A DNA stretch of 64,000 bases from Synechococcus sp. MEDNS5 (GTDB lineage Bacteria > Cyanobacteriota > Cyanobacteriia > PCC-6307 > Cyanobiaceae). Both the position numbers and the translations under genes were made by a program. Below the pieces are notes generated by a model. The model was not told the origin of the DNA. It was given only the letters and a program-made list of their open reading frames with translations, and ran no database searches. Below, in pieces: positions 46,218 through 56,153 of this stretch; positions within the stretch are counted from its first letter, which is position 1; the number at the start of each line of letters is the position of its first letter. The DNA is taken from assembly GCF_014279875.1 (NCBI RefSeq), contig NZ_CP047952.1, positions 806,001 through 870,000 of the forward strand, read 5' to 3'.

Positions 46218-47960
46218 TCAGGGCAGGGCCAGGGCTGTTCCTTCCCGGCGGGGGTCAGCAGCTCCATGCCAGCGATCGCCGATCCGTTGCACCAGGCCAA
46301 TGCCGCTGCCCAGCCTTTGGAGGCGCAATGTGCGGCCAGGTATTTCGAGCTGATCGGGATCGATGGGCCAGGGAAGCGGCGGCTCTTTCTCGATCACCAG
46401 GGTGTCTCCCTGGGGAGAGAGCAGGGGCAGCCCGACCGATTGGGCCGGTGGCTCCTGCCATTGTAGTGCTGCCAGCAGCACCCGGCTGATGTAGTGGGGG
46501 ATCCGCTTTCCCCCCGGGCTGCCCAGCGCCAGAACAGGCTGGTTTGCGTTGAAAACGATCGTTGGCGCCATTGACGACACCGGCCTGCGCCCTGGACGGC
46601 GGCGGTTGGCCACAGGGAGGCCCCCGACCACGGGCCGCCAGTCGAAATCGGTGAGCTGGTTGTTCATCACCATGCCCTCCACCAGATTGCGGCTGCCGAA
46701 GACGGTCTCCACGGTTGTGGTGTAGCTGGCGAGGTTGCCTAAAGCGTCCACGATCGTGACGTGGGAGGTGCCCAGCTCCGGCCCGGGCCCCGGGCGACCG
46801 AAGGGAAACCGCTTCATTCCCGGGGGCAGACCGGGCTGTGGCAAGCGCGCGGGTGAGGTCTGCATAGCCTGCACACGGGCCCGGATGTAGGCCGGATCCA
46901 GCAATCCCTCGGTGGGGATGGGGCCATCGATCGGATCGTGAACCCAGTAGAGGCGATCGGCATCGGCCCAGGATTCCGCCAGGGCCAGATGGCGCCAGCT
47001 TTGTGGGATGGATGGATCGTTGAAGCCGCCGGTCGCATCGAGCAGGGCCAGGGTCTGCAACACCGCCAGTCCGCCGCTGCTCGGTGGGGGCACCGTGCAG
47101 ACGCGGTGCTTCATCTCCACCCGGCAGAGGGGGGCTCGGCGCACCACGGCGTAGGAGGCCAGATCCGTTGCGGTCCAACCCTTGAACGCCGGGGCCTGAA
47201 CCTTCAGGGCGTTGACCCCGCGCTGGATCCTTTGGGCTAACGGCCCCTCGTAAAAGGCACGACCCCCCTGCTGGGCCAGGGTCTCCAGGGTGCGGGCCAG
47301 GGCAGGGTTGCGGAACAGACGGCCTGCTGGCAACGGTTTCCCGCCAGGCAGGTAGAGCTGCTGGAAGGCCGGGTTGTGGGTGGTGCCGAGGCGCTTGGCC
47401 AGGGCGATGGATCTGCGCAGTCGCGGGCTGGGCAGGAACCCTTCGCGGGCCAGACCGATGGCGGGCTGAAGGTTGCTGGACCAGGGCCGATGCCCCAGTT
47501 GCTGATGAGCCTCCCAGAGCAGGGCCACGGTGCCAGGAACGCCGATCGCATCCGGATTGCGGGTGGCCGCCCGATAGGAGAGCGGTTCACCGGAAGGCTG
47601 GAGCAGGTCGTCGCGGCGGCTGCGCTCCGGTGCTGTTTCACGGCCATCGAACACCTCCAGGGCCTGGCGACGGGCATCCCAGTGCAACAGGAAGCCTCCG
47701 CCTCCGAGTCCGGAACTCTGCGGTTCCGCCACGGCCAGTACTGCCTGTGCTGCAACCAGGGCATCCACGGCATGGCCACCGCCGGCGAGAACGCTCAGAG
47801 CGGCCTTGCTGGCTAGGGGGTTGGCGGTGACGACCACGGCCGAACCGGCGGCCGTGGAAATGCTTTTTTTGCGGGTGTCTGCTTGTTCGGGATCGTCGCG
47901 ACTCACCGGAGCTGCGCTCAAAGGGCTGAGGGAGAGCAACAGCAGCAGGGCGGTGATCAT
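46218..47960 (-). CDS. ggt: Gamma-glutamyltransferase
   Basis: 580 residues with a signal peptide. It hydrolyses or transfers the gamma-glutamyl group of glutathione in the periplasm. SSGLGGGGFLLHWD opens the large subunit. The autocatalytic cleavage and nucleophile site ELGTSHVTIVD gives the Thr at the small-subunit start, and later PVSSMAPTIVF holds family Ser-Ser residues. It could recycle glutathione-derived amino acids. Confidence 0.95.
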   Translation of the reverse strand: MITALLLLLSLSPLSAAPVSRDDPEQADTRKKSISTAAGSAVVVTANPLASKAALSVLAGGGHAVDALVAAQAVLAVAEPQSSGLGGGGFLLHWDARRQALEVFDGRETAPERSRRDDLLQPSGEPLSYRAATRNPDAIGVPGTVALLWEAHQQLGHRPWSSNLQPAIGLAREGFLPSPRLRRSIALAKRLGTTHNPAFQQLYLPGGKPLPAGRLFRNPALARTLETLAQQGGRAFYEGPLAQRIQRGVNALKVQAPAFKGWTATDLASYAVVRRAPLCRVEMKHRVCTVPPPSSGGLAVLQTLALLDATGGFNDPSIPQSWRHLALAESWADADRLYWVHDPIDGPIPTEGLLDPAYIRARVQAMQTSPARLPQPGLPPGMKRFPFGRPGPGPELGTSHVTIVDALGNLASYTTTVETVFGSRNLVEGMVMNNQLTDFDWRPVVGGLPVANRRRPGRRPVSSMAPTIVFNANQPVLALGSPGGKRIPHYISRVLLAALQWQEPPAQSVGLPLLSPQGDTLVIEKEPPLPWPIDPDQLEIPGRTLRLQRLGSGIGLVQRIGDRWHGAADPRREGTALALP

Positions 47961-48058: not shown

Positions 48059-49690
48059 ATGACAGATGCAGGTCCAGCGACTCCCAGTTCGTCGCACGTG
48101 GTGGTGATCGGCGCCGGCTGGGCCGGCTGGGGTGCCGCCAAGGCCCTCTGTGAAGCAGGTTTGCGCGTGACGCTGCTGGATGGGGTGGAGGACCCTACAG
48201 GCAGCACGCCCCTCACCACCAGCAGCGGCAAACCCTTTGAAGCCGGCACCCGCGGGTTCTGGAAGGACTACCCCAACATCAATGCCCTCACTGCTGAACT
48301 AGGGCTCAGCGATGTGTTCACGGAGTTCACCACCAGCGCCTTCTGGTCACCCGATGGGCTGGAGGCCACAGCGCCGGTGTTCGGCGATGCGTTGCTCTGG
48401 CCCAGTCCCATCGGGCAGGTGCTGGCCACCACCACCAACTTCAAGCGGCTGCCCGTGGCTGATCGCCTCAGCATTGCCGGGCTCCTCTACGCAATGCTCG
48501 ATCTCAACCGCAGTGAGGCGGTATTTGAGCGCTACGACAACCTCGATGCGCTGACCCTGTTCCGAAGCCTCGGAATCAGTGAGCGGATGATCAACGACTT
48601 CCTTCGCCCCACGCTTCTGGTGGGCTTGTTCAAGCCGCCGGAGGAACTGTCGGCGGCAGTGACCATGGAGCTTCTCTATTACTACTCCTTTGCCCATCAG
48701 GATTCCTTCGATGTGCGTTGGATCCGGGCCAGAAGCATCGCGGAACAGTTGATTGCGCCATTGGCGCAGCGGCTGATCGATCGCCATGGCCTGCAGGTGC
48801 TGGGCGGCACGCTGGCCACAGGTTTGAACCTCCATCCAGACACCAAGGCCATTGCGTCAGTGCAAACCCGTGCTTTGGCTACGGGTGAGAACGCCGTGAT
48901 CGACGGAGTGGATGCGGTGGTGCTCACGGTGGGTGCCAAGGGGATGGGAGCACTGATGGCGAACTCACCGGCCTGTGCTGCCGCAGCTCCGGAACTGGTG
49001 GATGCCGGCAGTCTCGGAGCCATTGATGTGGTGTCGGTGCGGTTGTGGTTAGACACCTACCTGGAGGTTGCTGACCCAGCCAACGTGTTCTCCCGTTTTG
49101 AGGCGTTGCAGGGGGCTGGAGGCACCTTCTTCATGCTCGATCAGTTGCAGAAGGAAACGGAAGCTGCGCTGTGGGCAGGAGAGCAACCCCAGGGATCGGT
49201 GATCGCCAGCGACTTCTACAACGCCACGGCGATCGCGGCCCTCAGCGATGAGGAGATCGTGGCGTTGCTGATGCGCGAGTTGTTGCCGGTGGCCAATCCC
49301 GCCTTTCACACCGCCAACGTGCTGGAGGCTGAGGTACGACGCTACCCGGGGTCGGTGGCCTGGTTCTCTCCAGGGAGCTTCCGGCAGCGGCCGCCGCTGG
49401 AGACGGCGATCCCTTCGTTGGTGTGCGCCGGTGACTGGGTGCGGATGGGGCCGCGGGAATTCGGTGCCAAGGGGCTTTGCCAGGAGCGGGCCTATGTGTG
49501 CGGCTTGGAAGCGGCCAATTCCCTGCTGCGGCGCGGGGTGGTGCGCTGCGCTGATCCTGCCGGCAGGGCTCAGCACCGGGTAATTCCGATCCGGCCCGAT
49601 GAACCCCAGGTGCTGCTGGGGCGCTCCCTGAATGCCCAGGTGATGAACACGGCGGACGCCCTGGGGCTGCGTTGGCCGTGGTTGTCATGA
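48059..49690 (+). CDS. FAD-dependent amine-oxidase/carotene-desaturase-like protein
   Basis: 543 residues. VVVIGAGWAGWGAAKALCEAG is the FAD loop; the following blocks and the end VCAGDWVRMGPREFGAKGLC are those of the zeta-carotene-desaturase/HpnE-like group. AGGAG lies about 7 bases before the ATG. Its next gene starts one base after the stop, and the decarboxylase 33 bases after that, which suggests one operon. Substrate unknown. Confidence 0.87.
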   Translation: MTDAGPATPSSSHVVVIGAGWAGWGAAKALCEAGLRVTLLDGVEDPTGSTPLTTSSGKPFEAGTRGFWKDYPNINALTAELGLSDVFTEFTTSAFWSPDGLEATAPVFGDALLWPSPIGQVLATTTNFKRLPVADRLSIAGLLYAMLDLNRSEAVFERYDNLDALTLFRSLGISERMINDFLRPTLLVGLFKPPEELSAAVTMELLYYYSFAHQDSFDVRWIRARSIAEQLIAPLAQRLIDRHGLQVLGGTLATGLNLHPDTKAIASVQTRALATGENAVIDGVDAVVLTVGAKGMGALMANSPACAAAAPELVDAGSLGAIDVVSVRLWLDTYLEVADPANVFSRFEALQGAGGTFFMLDQLQKETEAALWAGEQPQGSVIASDFYNATAIAALSDEEIVALLMRELLPVANPAFHTANVLEAEVRRYPGSVAWFSPGSFRQRPPLETAIPSLVCAGDWVRMGPREFGAKGLCQERAYVCGLEAANSLLRRGVVRCADPAGRAQHRVIPIRPDEPQVLLGRSLNAQVMNTADALGLRWPWLS

Positions 49691-49691
49691 A

Positions 49692-50663
49692 ATGGCTGGC
49701 ATGAAGCGGATCCTGATCACTGGGGCGAGTTCCGGCATCGGCCTGGAGGCCGCCCGCCGGTTGGTCTCCAGTGGTCATCAACTCACACTTCTCTGCCGCA
49801 GCTCTGAGCGCGGCCAGCAGACTCGCGCGCAATTGCTTGCTGCCGGTGCAACGTCCAGCCAGGTGACCTGCCTGGTTGCCGATCTGGCCGACCTTGGCAG
49901 TGTGCAGAGCGCCTGTGATCAGCTGCAGGAGCGGGCTGAACCCCTTGATGCCCTGGTGCTGAATGCCGGGCAGCAACGGGCGGGGGCCGGGGCGCCGGTG
50001 TTCTCGCCCCAGGGCATCGAAATCACCTTTGCTGTGAATCAGCTGGCTCACCAACTGATCGCCACGGGCTTGCTGCCGCTGTTGCGGGCTGGATCGCAGC
50101 CGCGGGTGGTGATCACCGCCTCCGATGTGCACAACCCCGCCACTGGGGGCGGGCGTGTGGGCCAACCGGCGGATTTGGGCGATCTGGCAGGACTGCGGGC
50201 CGGCACGGGGTTTGTGATGCTTGATGGCAAAGCCCGTTTTGATGGCGACAAGGCCTACAAAGACAGCAAGCTCTGCAATGTGTTGTTGGGGCGCGAAATG
50301 GATCGCCAGCTCGCGGGCGCCATGCCTGTGCTCACCTGGAGCCCAGGCCTGGTGATCCAGCGCAGCCGTGAGGGTTTCTTCCGCCACAACCGCCAGAGCA
50401 ATCCTCTGGGGATGGCGTTGTTCGCGTTGGTGGCGCGGGATCTGCTGCGGGTGACAGAATCGGTTGCATCGGCTGGCGGTTTGCTGGCAGACCTGATCAC
50501 AGACTCTGCCTACGCTTCCCCTGGATTCAGCTACTGGAGCAACCGGTTGGTGCGACCCGGCATGCATCGTTTCTCTGCAGCGCAGACCAGTGCAGAGGCT
50601 GCCGATCTGGCGAAGGCTGGAGAGCTCTGGCGTCTCTCGGAGCTGTTGATCCGCACGGCGTAG
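49692..50663 (+). CDS. SDR related to light-dependent protochlorophyllide reductase
   Basis: 323 residues (or 320 from ATG at 49701). ILITGASSGIGLEAARRLVSS is the NADPH loop; the catalytic AYKDSKLCN keeps Tyr-x-x-x-Lys and matches the AYKDSKVCN of POR. Overall insertions fit POR more than general SDRs. The true por is likely elsewhere, so this is a paralogue of unknown substrate. It sits between the FAD protein and the decarboxylase. Confidence 0.82.
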   Translation: MAGMKRILITGASSGIGLEAARRLVSSGHQLTLLCRSSERGQQTRAQLLAAGATSSQVTCLVADLADLGSVQSACDQLQERAEPLDALVLNAGQQRAGAGAPVFSPQGIEITFAVNQLAHQLIATGLLPLLRAGSQPRVVITASDVHNPATGGGRVGQPADLGDLAGLRAGTGFVMLDGKARFDGDKAYKDSKLCNVLLGREMDRQLAGAMPVLTWSPGLVIQRSREGFFRHNRQSNPLGMALFALVARDLLRVTESVASAGGLLADLITDSAYASPGFSYWSNRLVRPGMHRFSAAQTSAEAADLAKAGELWRLSELLIRTA

Positions 50664-50696
50664 GCGCCACACTGAGGCAAATGTGCCACGGCGCTG

Positions 50697-52403
50697 ATGC
50701 CTCCTTCGGTTGTCACCTACGTGCTGGATCGGCTTGCGGATCTCGGCATCGGCCATGTGTTCGGCGTGCCGGGCGACTATTCCTTTCCTCTGAACGACGC
50801 GGTGGAAGTGCATCCGCGGCTGCAGTGGGTTCCGTCTGCCAATGAACTGAATGCGGCTTACGCCGCCGATGGCTATGCCCGTCGCCGTGGTGCAGGGATC
50901 CTTTGCACCACCTACGGCGTGGGTGAACTCAGTGCCCTTAATGGCGTGATGGGCTCCATGGCCGAGCGCTTGCCTGTGTTCCACTTGGTGGGAACCCCGA
51001 GCGTGCGCATTGTGCGCCAGGGATTGATCTGCCATCACACCCTTGGTGACACCCGCTACGACCGCTTCGAGGCGATTTCGGCTGCGGCCGGTTGTGTGAG
51101 TGCGCGGCTCACGCCCGAGAACGTGGTGGTGGAGCTGGAGCGGGTGATCGACAAGGCCCTTGAGGATTCACGGCCCGCCTATCTCACCGTGCCCATGGAC
51201 CTGGCGCTGATGCCGATCACCGGCACGCCGATCCAGGGGACGCCGATCGGCAGCATCGATCAACACGCCAGTGTGGCGGTGGAGCTGGAGGCTGTACTCG
51301 ATCTGGTGATGGAGCGCATGGCGGAGGCATCCTGTCCGCTGGTGATGCCCACGGTCACTCTCAAGCGTTTCGGACTGGTGGAGACGTTTGCAACGTTCCT
51401 CGAGGTTTCAGGGTTGGCCTATGCCACCACGCCGATGGACAAGGCCCTGCTCAGTGAAGGGCATCCCGCCTTCCTTGGGATGTACAACGGCGTGCGCTCC
51501 ACTCCTGCTGCTTTGCAGGGTGTGGTGGAAGACGCCGATCTGCTCATCGACGTGGGCGGACTGGTGATGGAGGACCTCAACACCGGTCTCTGGAGCGGTC
51601 ATCTGGACACAAGGCGGGTGATTTCCCTGCATGCCGACTGGGTGCAGGCCGGTGATCAGGTGTTCACCAGCGTGAGCCTCAGCGAAGTGCTAGCTGGGCT
51701 GATCAAGCGCTTTCAGGCGGCTGACTCAAGAGCCAGCCACTGGGGGGAGCAGCGGCCGGTGCAGCCAGAGCCCCTGCTTCCTCTGAGTGGTGAGGGGGAT
51801 CAGCCCACGGCATCGGCGAATGTCTATCCACGCCTGCAGCGGTTTCTGCGCCCCACCGATCTGCTGATCACCGACACCGGCACCTCTCTGCTCAAGCTCA
51901 ACGCCATGCGATTGCCTGACGGGGTGGCCATCGAAACGCAGACCCTCTGGGGATCGATCGGCTGGGCGACGCCCGCTGCCCTCGGCTGTGCCCTAGCCGA
52001 TGCCGAACGCCGGGTGGTGCTGGTCACCGGTGATGGGGCCCACCAGCTCACGGTGCAGGAGGTCGCTGTGATGGGCTTCACCGGGGCCAAGCCAGTGGTG
52101 ATCGTTCTCAACAACGGCCTCTATGGGGTGGAGGCCTTGCTCAGCGAAACCGGTCATGCCTACAACGATCTGCCTCCCTGGCGTTATGCCCAGCTTCCCG
52201 AGGCTTTCGGTTGCCAGGGATGGTGGTGCGGCCGCGTGTCAACGGTGGCGGAGCTGGAGCAGGCGCTGGCGGCCATCAATGCCCACGATGGCGCTGCTTA
52301 CCTCGAGGTGATGATTCCCCCGGAGGAGAGCCAGCCTCTGCCGGAGGCGTTGATTGAAACCATGCACCAGACGGCGACGCCGCATCAGGAAGCAGCTGGG
52401 TGA
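50697..52403 (+). CDS. Pyruvate/indolepyruvate decarboxylase-like ThDP enzyme
   Basis: 568 residues, full length. GVPGDYSFPL and ANELNAAYAADGYARRRG give the catalytic Glu; CHHTLGD is the His-His pair of the pyruvate/indolepyruvate decarboxylase class; GDGAHQLTVQEVAVM with NNGLYGVE is the ThDP-Mg site. It decarboxylates a 2-keto acid to an aldehyde. Pyruvate, indolepyruvate and phenylpyruvate are all possible. Its end overlaps the convergent iron alcohol dehydrogenase by 128 bases. Confidence 0.9.
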   Translation: MPPSVVTYVLDRLADLGIGHVFGVPGDYSFPLNDAVEVHPRLQWVPSANELNAAYAADGYARRRGAGILCTTYGVGELSALNGVMGSMAERLPVFHLVGTPSVRIVRQGLICHHTLGDTRYDRFEAISAAAGCVSARLTPENVVVELERVIDKALEDSRPAYLTVPMDLALMPITGTPIQGTPIGSIDQHASVAVELEAVLDLVMERMAEASCPLVMPTVTLKRFGLVETFATFLEVSGLAYATTPMDKALLSEGHPAFLGMYNGVRSTPAALQGVVEDADLLIDVGGLVMEDLNTGLWSGHLDTRRVISLHADWVQAGDQVFTSVSLSEVLAGLIKRFQAADSRASHWGEQRPVQPEPLLPLSGEGDQPTASANVYPRLQRFLRPTDLLITDTGTSLLKLNAMRLPDGVAIETQTLWGSIGWATPAALGCALADAERRVVLVTGDGAHQLTVQEVAVMGFTGAKPVVIVLNNGLYGVEALLSETGHAYNDLPPWRYAQLPEAFGCQGWWCGRVSTVAELEQALAAINAHDGAAYLEVMIPPEESQPLPEALIETMHQTATPHQEAAG

Positions 52404-53577
52404 GCAGGGCTTCACAATCGCTGCGGCGCATCACACGCGGGACCGGATAAGCGGGATGGGCCTCTTTGAAGGCATCGGCGCTGATTCGGGGAATGTCGAC
52501 GCTGCGTAGCGGTTGAATGGAAGAAGGCACTCCCAGCTGCTGGTTGAGTGCGACCACCCAGCTGATGAAGCCCAACGCGAGATCGTGATCGCTGGTCTGG
52601 TCTGTGCCCAGCTCTGCAGCGCGGGCCAGAGCGGCCAGCCTGTGCTCGCAGGCCGGAAGGGAAAAGCGCAGCACACTCGGCAACACCAGCGCATTGGCAA
52701 GGCCATGGGGGATGCCGTAGAAGCAGCCGAGGGCATGGGCCAGGGCATGGGCATAGCCCACATTGGTGCGGGTGAAAGCCTCACCGGCGGCATGGGCGGC
52801 AAGGGCCATCTGCAGGCGGGCCTCGAGGTCGTCCCCGTTGGCGTGGGCCCGGGGCAACCAGCGGGTAATGGCGCTGATCGCATCAATGGCGCGACGATTG
52901 CTGAAGGGGGTGCCGCTGCAGCCGATGTAGGCCTCCACCGCATGGGTGAGGGCATCGAGGCCACCGGCGGCCGTGATCGCGGGCGGCAGGCCGAGCATCA
53001 ACTCCGGGTCGATCACCGTGATCGCAGGCAGCAGCTTGAGATCGGCAATGGCGAGTTTGCGTTGCCGATCTCCATCGGTGAGTACCGCTGCGATCGACGC
53101 TTCTGATCCGGAGCCGGCGGTGGTGGGCACGCAGGCCAGAGGCGGTGGCGGCAGGATCACCCGGAAGAGCCCCTCCATGGCCCGGCAGCTCAGCCAGGGG
53201 TTGGCCGCGCGCGCGCCGATGGCCTTGGCGCAGTCGATCACTGAGCCGCCCCCAACGGCCACAAGGCTGTCGCAGTGGCCTGCGCGGTAGGCCTGCAGTC
53301 CGGCCTCCACGCTGGCAATGGTGGGATTCTCCGGGACTCGATCAAACACCCAGCAGGGTCGCCCCGCCCGTTCGAGTTCCGCCAGCAGGGGCTGGGGCAA
53401 CCGCAGCTGCAGGAGTTGCTTGTTGGTGACCAGCAGCGGCCGGCGCCAGCGGCGGCCGCGCATCTGCGGCGGCAGCAACCGCAGGGCACCGGCGCCGATG
53501 AGCTTGCGGGGCTGGGGAAAGGGCAACACCAATGCCAGGCCCTGGAGCAGCCGCTGATAAGCCCGCATCAGCAGCAT
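52276..53577 (-). CDS. Iron-type (group III) alcohol dehydrogenase
   Basis: 433 residues. VAVGGGSVIDCAKAIG is the cofactor motif, PTTAGSGSEAS the second, and GLDALTHAVEAY plus HALGCFYGIPHGLANAL give the iron-binding His residues. It probably reduces an aldehyde to an alcohol. The last 40 residues (after LLTQLLPDA) are of low-complexity type and coincide with the overlap on the decarboxylase gene, so the functional end may be earlier. Confidence 0.9.
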   Translation of the reverse strand: MLLMRAYQRLLQGLALVLPFPQPRKLIGAGALRLLPPQMRGRRWRRPLLVTNKQLLQLRLPQPLLAELERAGRPCWVFDRVPENPTIASVEAGLQAYRAGHCDSLVAVGGGSVIDCAKAIGARAANPWLSCRAMEGLFRVILPPPPLACVPTTAGSGSEASIAAVLTDGDRQRKLAIADLKLLPAITVIDPELMLGLPPAITAAGGLDALTHAVEAYIGCSGTPFSNRRAIDAISAITRWLPRAHANGDDLEARLQMALAAHAAGEAFTRTNVGYAHALAHALGCFYGIPHGLANALVLPSVLRFSLPACEHRLAALARAAELGTDQTSDHDLALGFISWVVALNQQLGVPSSIQPLRSVDIPRISADAFKEAHPAYPVPRVMRRSDCEALLTQLLPDAASPSGAWFQSTPPAEAGSPPGESSPRGKQRHRGH

Positions 53578-53648
53578 GGGTGGGGGGCGTACTTGGCTTC
53601 AGTCTGAAGGGTCTGCAGGATGAAGAAAGCCATCGCCTGCAAGCTCAG

Positions 53649-54068
53649 ATGCGCGCCTCTGCCCCCCTCCCTCTGGTTCTCGCCGCTTCGCTCCTGTGTC
53701 TGCTGCCTCCCGCAACGCGGGCCTCTGAGGGGTGCTCCTCAGCGCAGAGCACCGTGGAGGAAACGGGTTGTGTGATTGCGGCTTTGAAGGCGATGGACCA
53801 GCGCCTGGAGCAGGCTCTTGAAGCGGTGGCGCAGGAGGCCCGTGCGGTGCCCAGTGAGGTGTTTCAGACCCTCTGGCGCGACAATCTCACCGGTTTCTAC
53901 AACACCAGTGCTGATCCAGCGGCACAGGCCGCGGCATTTCGGGACGAACGCCGCAAAGTGTGTGCCTATGCCAAATCTGTCGCGTTTCAGGGCACGGGCT
54001 ACGGCATCTTCACGACGCGCTGCGAGTTGGCGCTGACCCGCGCCCTGTTGGATCAGTTGAAGCCCTGA
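53649..54068 (+). CDS. Secreted LprI-like (DUF1311) protein
   Basis: 139 residues from MRASAPLPL. Signal peptide ends near PPATRAS. The mature domain has Cys in CSSAQSTVEETGCVI and later KVCAYAKSV and TRCELALTR, like lysozyme-inhibitor LprI N-terminal domains. The function in cyanobacteria is unknown. Confidence 0.7.
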   Translation: MRASAPLPLVLAASLLCLLPPATRASEGCSSAQSTVEETGCVIAALKAMDQRLEQALEAVAQEARAVPSEVFQTLWRDNLTGFYNTSADPAAQAAAFRDERRKVCAYAKSVAFQGTGYGIFTTRCELALTRALLDQLKP

Positions 54069-54077
54069 GGCCTTGAC

Positions 54078-54953
54078 TCATCCGTTGAAGAGCCCCAGCC
54101 CCCGGGCGTGATGGCGCAGGTGGGTGTCGATCACACTGGCCACAAAGAAGTAGCTGTGGTCGTAGCCCTCATGCACAGTGAGCGTGAGCGGCTGGCCGCA
54201 GCGCTCGGCCGCTGCCTTGAGGTCGCTCGGGCGCAGCTGTTCTTCCAGAAAGGGATCGGCGGAGCCGACATCCACGAGCAGGCAGTCCTCCCGGCGATGA
54301 CCATCCTCGAGCAGGGCCACGCCATCCCAGGCTCGCCAGCGGGCCTGGGCCTCGGCGCTGTTTCCGAGGAAATGGGTGAAGGCCTTCTGCCCCCAGGGGC
54401 AGGCGCTGGGATGGCAGATCGGTGCCACCGCCGAAACGGAACGGAAGCGCTGCGGGTGACGCAAGCCCAGCACCAGGGCTCCATGACCGCCCATGGAATG
54501 ACCAGCCAGCCCCAGGCGGTTGGGGTCCAGGGGCAAGGCTGCGCTGAGCCGGGCCGGGAGCTCTTCGACCACGTAGCTGTGCATGCGGTAGTGCTGGTGC
54601 CATGGCTCCTGCTCGGCATCCAGATAGAAGCCGGCGCCATGGCCGAAATCCCAGTGTCCCCCTGGATCACTGGGCACCGCATCACCACGGGGGCTGGTGT
54701 CGGGCATGACCAGGGCCAGCCCGAGCTCGGAGGCCAGTCGCTGGGCTCCCGCCTTCTGCACCGCGTTTTCATCGCTGCAGGTGAGACCTGACAGCCAGAT
54801 CAGGGCGGGCAGGGCAGCGACACTCGACTCTGCGCTGAGCGCGGCGGGGGGCAGATACACGCTCACCGTGGTGTCACTGTGCAGCGTTTCGGCGTGCAGT
54901 CGGTAGCGCCGTTGTTCGCCGCCAAAGCAGTGATGGGAGCTGATCAGTTCCAT
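54078..54953 (-). CDS. fghA: S-formylglutathione hydrolase
   Basis: 291 residues. It hydrolyses S-formylglutathione to formate and glutathione. SGLTCSDENAVQKAG, the nucleophile in GHSMGGHGA and GYDHSYFF (the catalytic His) are standard. It lies 24 bases downstream of the class III alcohol dehydrogenase, giving the two-step glutathione-dependent formaldehyde pathway in one operon. Confidence 0.95.
   Translation of the reverse strand: MELISSHHCFGGEQRRYRLHAETLHSDTTVSVYLPPAALSAESSVAALPALIWLSGLTCSDENAVQKAGAQRLASELGLALVMPDTSPRGDAVPSDPGGHWDFGHGAGFYLDAEQEPWHQHYRMHSYVVEELPARLSAALPLDPNRLGLAGHSMGGHGALVLGLRHPQRFRSVSAVAPICHPSACPWGQKAFTHFLGNSAEAQARWRAWDGVALLEDGHRREDCLLVDVGSADPFLEEQLRPSDLKAAAERCGQPLTLTVHEGYDHSYFFVASVIDTHLRHHARGLGLFNG

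Positions 54954-54977: not shown

Positions 54978-56153
<1,176 letters not shown>

Follow-up and report, generated by a model that had tools for sequence, protein, structure and literature searches.

Gene Content of the Locus

Within a 64,000-nucleotide stretch of Synechococcus sp. MEDNS5 contig NZ_CP047952.1, referred to here as the window, we analyzed a locus of four genes. These encode a flavin adenine dinucleotide (FAD)–dependent oxidoreductase of the amine oxidase/phytoene desaturase fold (48059..49690, plus strand; 543 aa), a short-chain dehydrogenase/reductase (SDR) predicted to be a paralog of light-dependent protochlorophyllide oxidoreductase (LPOR or POR) and not an LPOR itself (49692..50663, plus strand; 323 aa), a thiamine diphosphate (ThDP)–dependent 2-oxo acid decarboxylase of the pyruvate decarboxylase (PDC)/indolepyruvate decarboxylase (IPDC)/KdcA superfamily that falls in a picocyanobacterial subclade (50697..52403, plus strand; 568 aa), and an iron-type alcohol dehydrogenase (Fe-ADH; 52276..53577, minus strand; 433 aa). 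One base lies between the FAD oxidoreductase and SDR genes and 33 bases between the SDR and decarboxylase genes. An original prediction, made by a model that saw the sequence alone, had given the same positions and spacings, with which the open reading frames (ORFs) agree, and the gene identities that it proposed are borne out by Pfam and NCBIfam profiles and by sequence comparison with the PDB, from which the families of the four proteins were assigned. The decarboxylase and Fe-ADH genes are convergent and their 3′ ends overlap by 128 bases, a feature absent from that prediction; part of the C-terminal tail of the Fe-ADH is encoded antisense to the end of the decarboxylase gene, and in this tail the 433-aa window protein differs from the 415-aa protein of Synechococcus WH7803. 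The four are not chance ORFs, because long homologs of all of them are present in related genomes. The source genome (2.44 Mb) is close to Synechococcus WH7803, and the two decarboxylases are 94% identical (WH7803 locus L003).

Gene distribution was followed in three samples. All 31 genomes of the genus, 24 of them near-complete, were searched for each gene and the positions were tabulated. Matches to the decarboxylase, Fe-ADH, and FAD oxidoreductase were counted at E ≤ 1e-60 in a family sample of 201 genomes, and in a phylum sample of 386 genomes the decarboxylase was counted at E ≤ 1e-60 and the SDR clade at E ≤ 1e-45. A literature search returned, from the part of the literature accessible to it, no publication that dealt with the POR paralog or with the picocyanobacterial versions of these genes.

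The SDR Is a Predicted LPOR Paralog

The SDR has an adh_short domain, and its best NCBIfam model is LPOR (TIGR01289), on which it scores 154.4 bits vs. a cut-off of 331.35; two orthologs from small-genome relatives score 142.8 and 115.3 bits. A separate POR encoded in the source genome passes the same model with 434 bits, and five of the 11 nonstructure POR rows used as controls, this POR among them, were scored and all pass, at 433–488 bits. The AlphaFold model of the SDR (predicted local distance difference test, pLDDT, 93.9) has LPOR chains as all ten of its best PDB matches by Foldseek, with E values of 8e-22 or better vs. 2e-17 for the next match.

Residues were compared between 50 paralog rows (the window gene and that of genome G204 each counted twice) and 12 POR rows, one of which is the T. 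elongatus structure; only matches of at least 280 residues without stops were kept. Position 226 is Cys in 12/12 PORs and Leu in 50/50 paralogs, and position 89 is Cys in 9/12 PORs and again Leu in every paralog. Positions 143, 145, and 147, which are L, T, and T in POR, are T, S, and V in all paralogs. Tyr193 and Lys197 are kept in 50/50 paralogs. Of the remaining cysteines of the T. elongatus enzyme, Cys199 is kept and Cys37 does not discriminate, being Cys in 49/50 paralogs and 4/12 PORs. We considered and rejected a second protochlorophyllide reductase, because the active-site Cys226 is replaced by Leu and the score lies under the LPOR cut-off. An actinobacterial SDR at 33% identity is described as inactive as an LPOR (PMC7947762), and fold and distant identity are therefore insufficient to identify an LPOR. 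Judged by its residues and profile scores, the window SDR is a member of the LPOR family that is not an LPOR, and would be a POR paralog that has lost the active-site cysteine.

The SDR gene is present in 28 of the 31 genus genomes; in one of them, G218, it is broken into two pieces that lie on separate contigs. At E ≤ 1e-30 the query matches 176 of the 201 family genomes, a figure that includes true POR; the POR-like clade, whose rows extend down to E = 8.5e-55 with the next at 1.7e-43, is found in 132. Across the phylum sample the clade occurs in 54/386 genomes, 53 of them within the family of the window, and its sole match elsewhere (G484) has 41% identity, so that on these matches the paralog is nearly confined to picocyanobacteria. 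It is present in all 16 genomes of genus g18 (1.6–1.7 Mb) among those listed, and no g18 genome appears among the listed nonmatches in a list ordered by kinship. At seven of eight small-genome loci (L083–L088 and L091, with L092 the exception), the SDR gene is divergent to one and the same gene cluster, of which the single member scanned, at L085, scores as a lycopene cyclase; these relatives are presumably Prochlorococcus. Five genus genomes (G207, G208, G217, G220, and G221) have an extra SDR match in a frame of about 309 aa, at 40–46% identity and E values of 1e-25 to 1e-27. With POR and the POR-like gene already accounted for, this could be a third member of the LPOR family.

Linkage of the SDR to an FAD Oxidoreductase

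The FAD oxidoreductase matches Pfam Amino_oxidase with 62.1 bits (cut-off 19.8) and lies below the NCBIfam equivalog cut-offs for hydroxysqualene dehydroxylase HpnE (82.2 vs. 283.05 bits) and phytoene desaturase PDS (67.7 vs. 569.4). Its structural model, of moderate confidence (pLDDT 72.5), has phytoene desaturase 5mog as its best Foldseek match (E 2.7e-16; TM scores 0.66/0.76), followed by protoporphyrinogen oxidase and amine oxidases. The gene is found in 30/31 genus genomes, 45/201 family genomes, and 52/283 genomes of a wider search, 38 of them outside the family at 38–42% identity; G484 is not among these 38. The FAD oxidoreductase gene thus appears, on the matches obtained, to be older than the SDR clade. 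In the family sample, 40 of the 45 genomes with the FAD gene are among the 132 with the SDR clade.

Both genes are encoded in 28 of the 31 genus genomes. Taking adjacency as location on one strand with a gap of at most 700 bp, they are adjacent in 15 of the 28, in the order FAD-SDR in eight (G000, G202, G203, G204, G213, G218, G181, and G193) and SDR-FAD in seven (G206, G207, G211, G212, G217, G220, and G221), which strengthens the earlier proposal that the two enzymes act together. Most likely they constitute a conserved module whose two redox reactions share a single large, hydrophobic substrate, which the FAD enzyme would oxidize, desaturate, or isomerize and the NADPH-type SDR would reduce. 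Our first guess for the substrate is an isoprenoid, for example a carotenoid or an apocarotenoid. The isoprenoid pathway raised in the original prediction receives a weak hint from the phytoene desaturase as nearest fold and from the lycopene cyclase cluster beside the SDR in small-genome relatives. Tentatively, then, the second LPOR-family enzyme that picocyanobacteria retain even in the smallest genomes, paired with a phytoene-desaturase-like FAD enzyme in Synechococcus or located beside lycopene cyclase in the small-genome relatives, may use NADPH to modify a pigment (a carotenoid, an apocarotenoid, or one of the chlorophyll type) in a reaction not described before.

A Predicted 2-Oxo Acid Decarboxylase with an Altered Substrate Pocket

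The decarboxylase contains the three ThDP-enzyme domains in Pfam, and its best PDB matches are 8zk6 and 1ovm. It scores 424.9 bits on the IPDC equivalog model TIGR03393, below the cut-off of 946. In the alignment its catalytic set is intact (D27, E50, H113, H114, and E479), and these residues are kept in all 13 clade-A rows of the genus; we take the roles of the catalytic and pocket residues from the PDC and IPDC literature. The pocket differs from those of both enzymes: Q383/A387/F388 of 1ovm and T388/A392/F393 of yeast PDC correspond to T394/L398/L399, the next residue being Lys where those enzymes have Gly, and the aromatic pocket residues F292 and F393 of yeast PDC correspond to L294 and L399, although the pairing of the 1ovm residue at the F292 position varies with the alignment. 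The pocket is alike in the 13 other clade-A rows, where position 398 is Leu or Met and position 400 is Lys or Gln, and a decarboxylase clade at 51–53% identity has Met-Thr-His or similar at the pocket positions. In a phylogenetic tree, which carries long-branch warnings, 27 cyanobacterial rows share a strongly supported branch of their own, separate from the IPDC, PDC, and f31 rows (f31 being a family of small genomes); one truncated f31 row (L114) was left out of the residue comparison, and five of the 18 remaining f31 rows were used in the tree. Specificity for pyruvate or indolepyruvate was rejected as unproven, the pocket being unlike those of PDC and IPDC. The protein plausibly works as a 2-oxo acid decarboxylase, in which case it would release CO2 from a 2-oxo acid to give an aldehyde; to call it an IPDC or a PDC would go beyond these residues and scores.

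The gene is patchily distributed, in 15/31 genus genomes, 17/201 family genomes, and 69/386 phylum genomes, in keeping with the earlier remark that the keto acid to alcohol route is uncommon in cyanobacteria. Of the 69, 28 belong to the class of the window and 41 lie outside it, 40 of these in f31, whose small genomes are probably those of Gastranaerophilales. Neighborhoods were mapped at 27 decarboxylase loci, consisting of the window and 26 stretches no longer than 19 kb, a number of them truncated by contig ends, in which some small ORFs are doubtful. In five genomes a multicopper oxidase gene is less than 5 kb away from the decarboxylase gene, which adjoins sulfatase/FGE genes in G210. In G205 (L121:8094-13524), phosphoketolase, acetate kinase, and decarboxylase follow one another on one strand with gaps of about 100 bases, possibly as a C2 or dark-energy operon; phosphoketolase and acetate kinase (E ≤ 1e-15) were found in no other fetched decarboxylase locus, and a role in acetyl-phosphate metabolism or fermentation is only a lead because this arrangement occurs in one of the 27 loci.

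Other neighbors were seen among more distant decarboxylases. The clade of about 52% identity (L046, L048, L051, and L044) adjoins two amidohydrolase-like genes, one of which was scanned and matches Amidohydro_3, and an MFS-type transporter gene, recognized from the look of its sequence only, is nearby at the same loci. At L126 and L127 a transporter-like gene lies directly upstream of the decarboxylase. A metagenome-assembled genome titled Blastopirellula contains a Synechococcus-like decarboxylase (77% identity) on two contigs whose listed genes follow the same order (L006, NZVR01000027; L007, NZVR01000002), probably representing cyanobacterial contamination of the bin.

The Iron-Type Alcohol Dehydrogenase and Its Neighbors

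The Fe-ADH matches Pfam Fe-ADH (PF00465; 144.3 bits, cut-off 31.3) and ADH_Fe_C (PF25137; 137.0 bits, cut-off 27) and is below every listed NCBIfam cut-off, scoring 292.8 vs. 523.15 bits on FucO (TIGR02638). Its best PDB match is the NAD-dependent methanol dehydrogenase 8zrl, followed by other methanol, propanediol, and lactaldehyde enzymes. The gene occurs in 9/31 genus genomes and 6/201 family genomes, and in seven of the nine its distance from the SDR gene is at most 5.2 kb.

On the far side of the Fe-ADH, genes for S-formylglutathione hydrolase (54078..54953, minus strand; TIGR02821, 370.9 bits, above the cut-off of 281.7) and S-(hydroxymethyl)glutathione dehydrogenase (54978..56090, minus strand; TIGR02818, 691.8 bits, above 543.95) share its strand, as does a gamma-glutamyltranspeptidase (GGT) gene divergent from the FAD oxidoreductase gene (46218..47960, minus strand; Pfam G_glu_transpept, 389.4 bits). 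The Fe-ADH could therefore belong with these glutathione-formaldehyde genes in a route from methanol through formaldehyde to formate and have nothing to do with the decarboxylase; the methanol dehydrogenase match would fit, and in G075 the Fe-ADH gene adjoins GGT (L053) and shares its strand with the dehydrogenase gene, at a distance of about 7.7 kb. We regard this as very unlikely. In G156 and G169 the Fe-ADH gene is located between the FAD and SDR genes, a space that also holds a propeller gene of the SdiA-regulated type and small ORFs, and none of the glutathione-formaldehyde or GGT genes was found in those 19-kb stretches. In the window, a small LprI-like gene on the opposite strand (53532-54068) adjoins the Fe-ADH gene and intervenes before the formaldehyde genes, and Fe-ADHs are a broad family in which the substrate cannot be read from the closest PDB entry.

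LprI-like relatives adjoin the decarboxylase in G045 and are near the SDR in G193. Large DUF1254/DUF1214 proteins are encoded between the decarboxylase and Fe-ADH genes of WH7803 (plus strand, L003:11830-14880) and G215 (minus strand, L118:10520-13297).

In six of the eight genomes that encode both, the decarboxylase and Fe-ADH genes lie less than 10 kb apart, and among the 31 genomes eight have both, one the Fe-ADH only, seven the decarboxylase only, and 15 neither (Fisher p = 0.006, relatedness ignored). A step from 2-oxo acid to aldehyde to alcohol, as originally predicted, is plausible because the decarboxylase keeps its catalytic residues, albeit in an altered pocket. The nearby Fe-ADH could reduce the aldehyde to an alcohol, as Ehrlich-type overflow or for disposal of NADH in the dark. 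The intact catalytic set and the recurrent proximity of the two genes support the predicted route to this extent.

A Proposed Meeting of Two Modules at One Locus

The original prediction had joined all four enzymes in one small aromatic or isoprenoid pathway, and co-occurrence across genomes was among its proposed checks. That check comes out differently for the set and for its parts, since co-occurrence holds for the pairs and not for the set of four. Among the 28 genus genomes in which both FAD and SDR genes occur, eight have all four genes, seven add only the decarboxylase, one adds only the Fe-ADH, and 12 have neither. The decarboxylase is directly 3′ of the SDR in four of 15 genomes, all of the WH7803-like lineage (G000, G202, G203, and G215), at 36–48 bp between alignment ends. 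The Fe-ADH persists at the SDR/FAD site without the decarboxylase: G169 lacks the decarboxylase, and in G216 the Fe-ADH gene is 3.8 kb from the SDR gene, whereas some 500 kb separate the decarboxylase from that site. In the family sample, 7/17 decarboxylase genomes have the FAD gene and 10/17 do not, and all six Fe-ADH genomes have it. A single pathway acting on one compound draws on the tight spacing in the window, the FAD-SDR linkage, the grouping of all four genes in about 11 kb of a single G156 contig, and a tyrosinase gene inserted in the run of G215 that hints at aromatic chemistry. With all four genes in only 8/31 genus genomes, their dispersal in G075, their location on three contigs in G210 and their split in G216, and the 12 genomes that keep FAD and SDR without the other two, we judge it improbable, and the claim of one four-gene pathway is not supported.

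Because relatives show a stable FAD-SDR pair beside a more mobile decarboxylase and Fe-ADH, the reading that we favor, with moderate confidence, is a composite locus at which two modules meet and which is not one fixed pathway. In the WH7803-like lineage the decarboxylase would have moved in directly behind the SDR, with a gap of 33 bases in the window, and is probably cotranscribed, and the Fe-ADH neighbors the FAD-SDR site in other lineages too. A second FAD-SDR site in G213 (L120:3233-5914) consists of an FAD remnant of about half the protein and a full-length second SDR, with the decarboxylase about 3 kb further on.

The locus might instead be a hot spot for gene gain whose neighbors share no function. 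The surroundings of these genes vary, with tyrosinase, sulfatase, and multicopper oxidase genes and genes for large proteins with DUF1254 or DUF4347/DUF4114 present in some genomes and absent from others, and the patchy decarboxylase is found in four or more settings. Adjacency of FAD and SDR in two orders exceeds what random insertion would easily give, as does a Fe-ADH near the SDR in three arrangements (WH7803-like, G156/G169, and G216), and we consider the hot spot unlikely, if the most serious of the alternatives.

Several observations weigh against the two-module reading. The FAD and SDR genes are 285–386 kb apart in four genomes (G201, G101, G075, and G123). A distance of about 10 kb separates them in G216 and G141, and four more genomes (G205, G209, G210, and G219) have them on different contigs. 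In the close relative G215, a tyrosinase-domain gene (L118:5327-7837; 836 aa; Pfam Tyrosinase, 68.5 bits, with a weak DUF4114 match at its end) is situated between them on the same strand; together with the multicopper oxidase genes that five genomes have close to the decarboxylase, it offers phenol oxidation as a lead. The FAD gene occurs without the SDR in 5/45 family genomes and also outside the family, and no widely conserved neighbor of it was seen at 20 loci in other cyanobacteria. Restricted to the 24 near-complete genomes, Fe-ADH/decarboxylase counts become 8, 1, 7, and 8 (p = 0.08), and these genomes are not independent. The isoprenoid idea, a weak one, comes from a fold resemblance and one neighbor in other genomes.

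If the SDR is a near-core picocyanobacterial enzyme that derives from the POR fold and catalyzes another reaction, it is a conserved gene of some of the most abundant marine phototrophs. The decarboxylase would allow some marine Synechococcus to release aldehydes or alcohols, with relevance to marine volatiles and dark survival. These are variants of known families, the POR paralog being the most interesting part.

Comparison with Known Systems

Each component resembles a characterized family and departs from it. The SDR has in common with LPOR (PDB 6l1h and 7jk9) the fold, the NADPH motif, the Tyr193-Lys197 pair, and Cys199, and differs by Leu at 226 and 89, replaced residues at 143–147, a three-residue insertion, and a score under the cut-off. 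The FAD protein has the FAD motif and overall fold of 15-cis-phytoene desaturase and HpnE but scores far under both equivalog cut-offs. Full-length homology, ThDP domains, and catalytic residues relate the decarboxylase to IPDC (1ovm), PDC (1qpb), and the branched-chain 2-keto acid decarboxylase (2vbf, compared by score only), whereas the pocket motif TSAFG of 1ovm and 1qpb is T-S/C-L/M-L-K/Q in clade A, which forms a separate well-supported branch. With the lactaldehyde reductase FucO and NAD-dependent methanol dehydrogenase, the Fe-ADH has in common both Fe-ADH domains and an aligned Asp/His metal-site pattern, but being under all listed NCBIfam cut-offs it is not assignable by substrate. 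The Ehrlich pathway and PDC-ADH alcohol fermentation consist of a decarboxylase and an alcohol dehydrogenase, both of which the locus encodes; it differs from them in that the two genes are convergent and overlapping and do not appear to be consistently linked in relatives.

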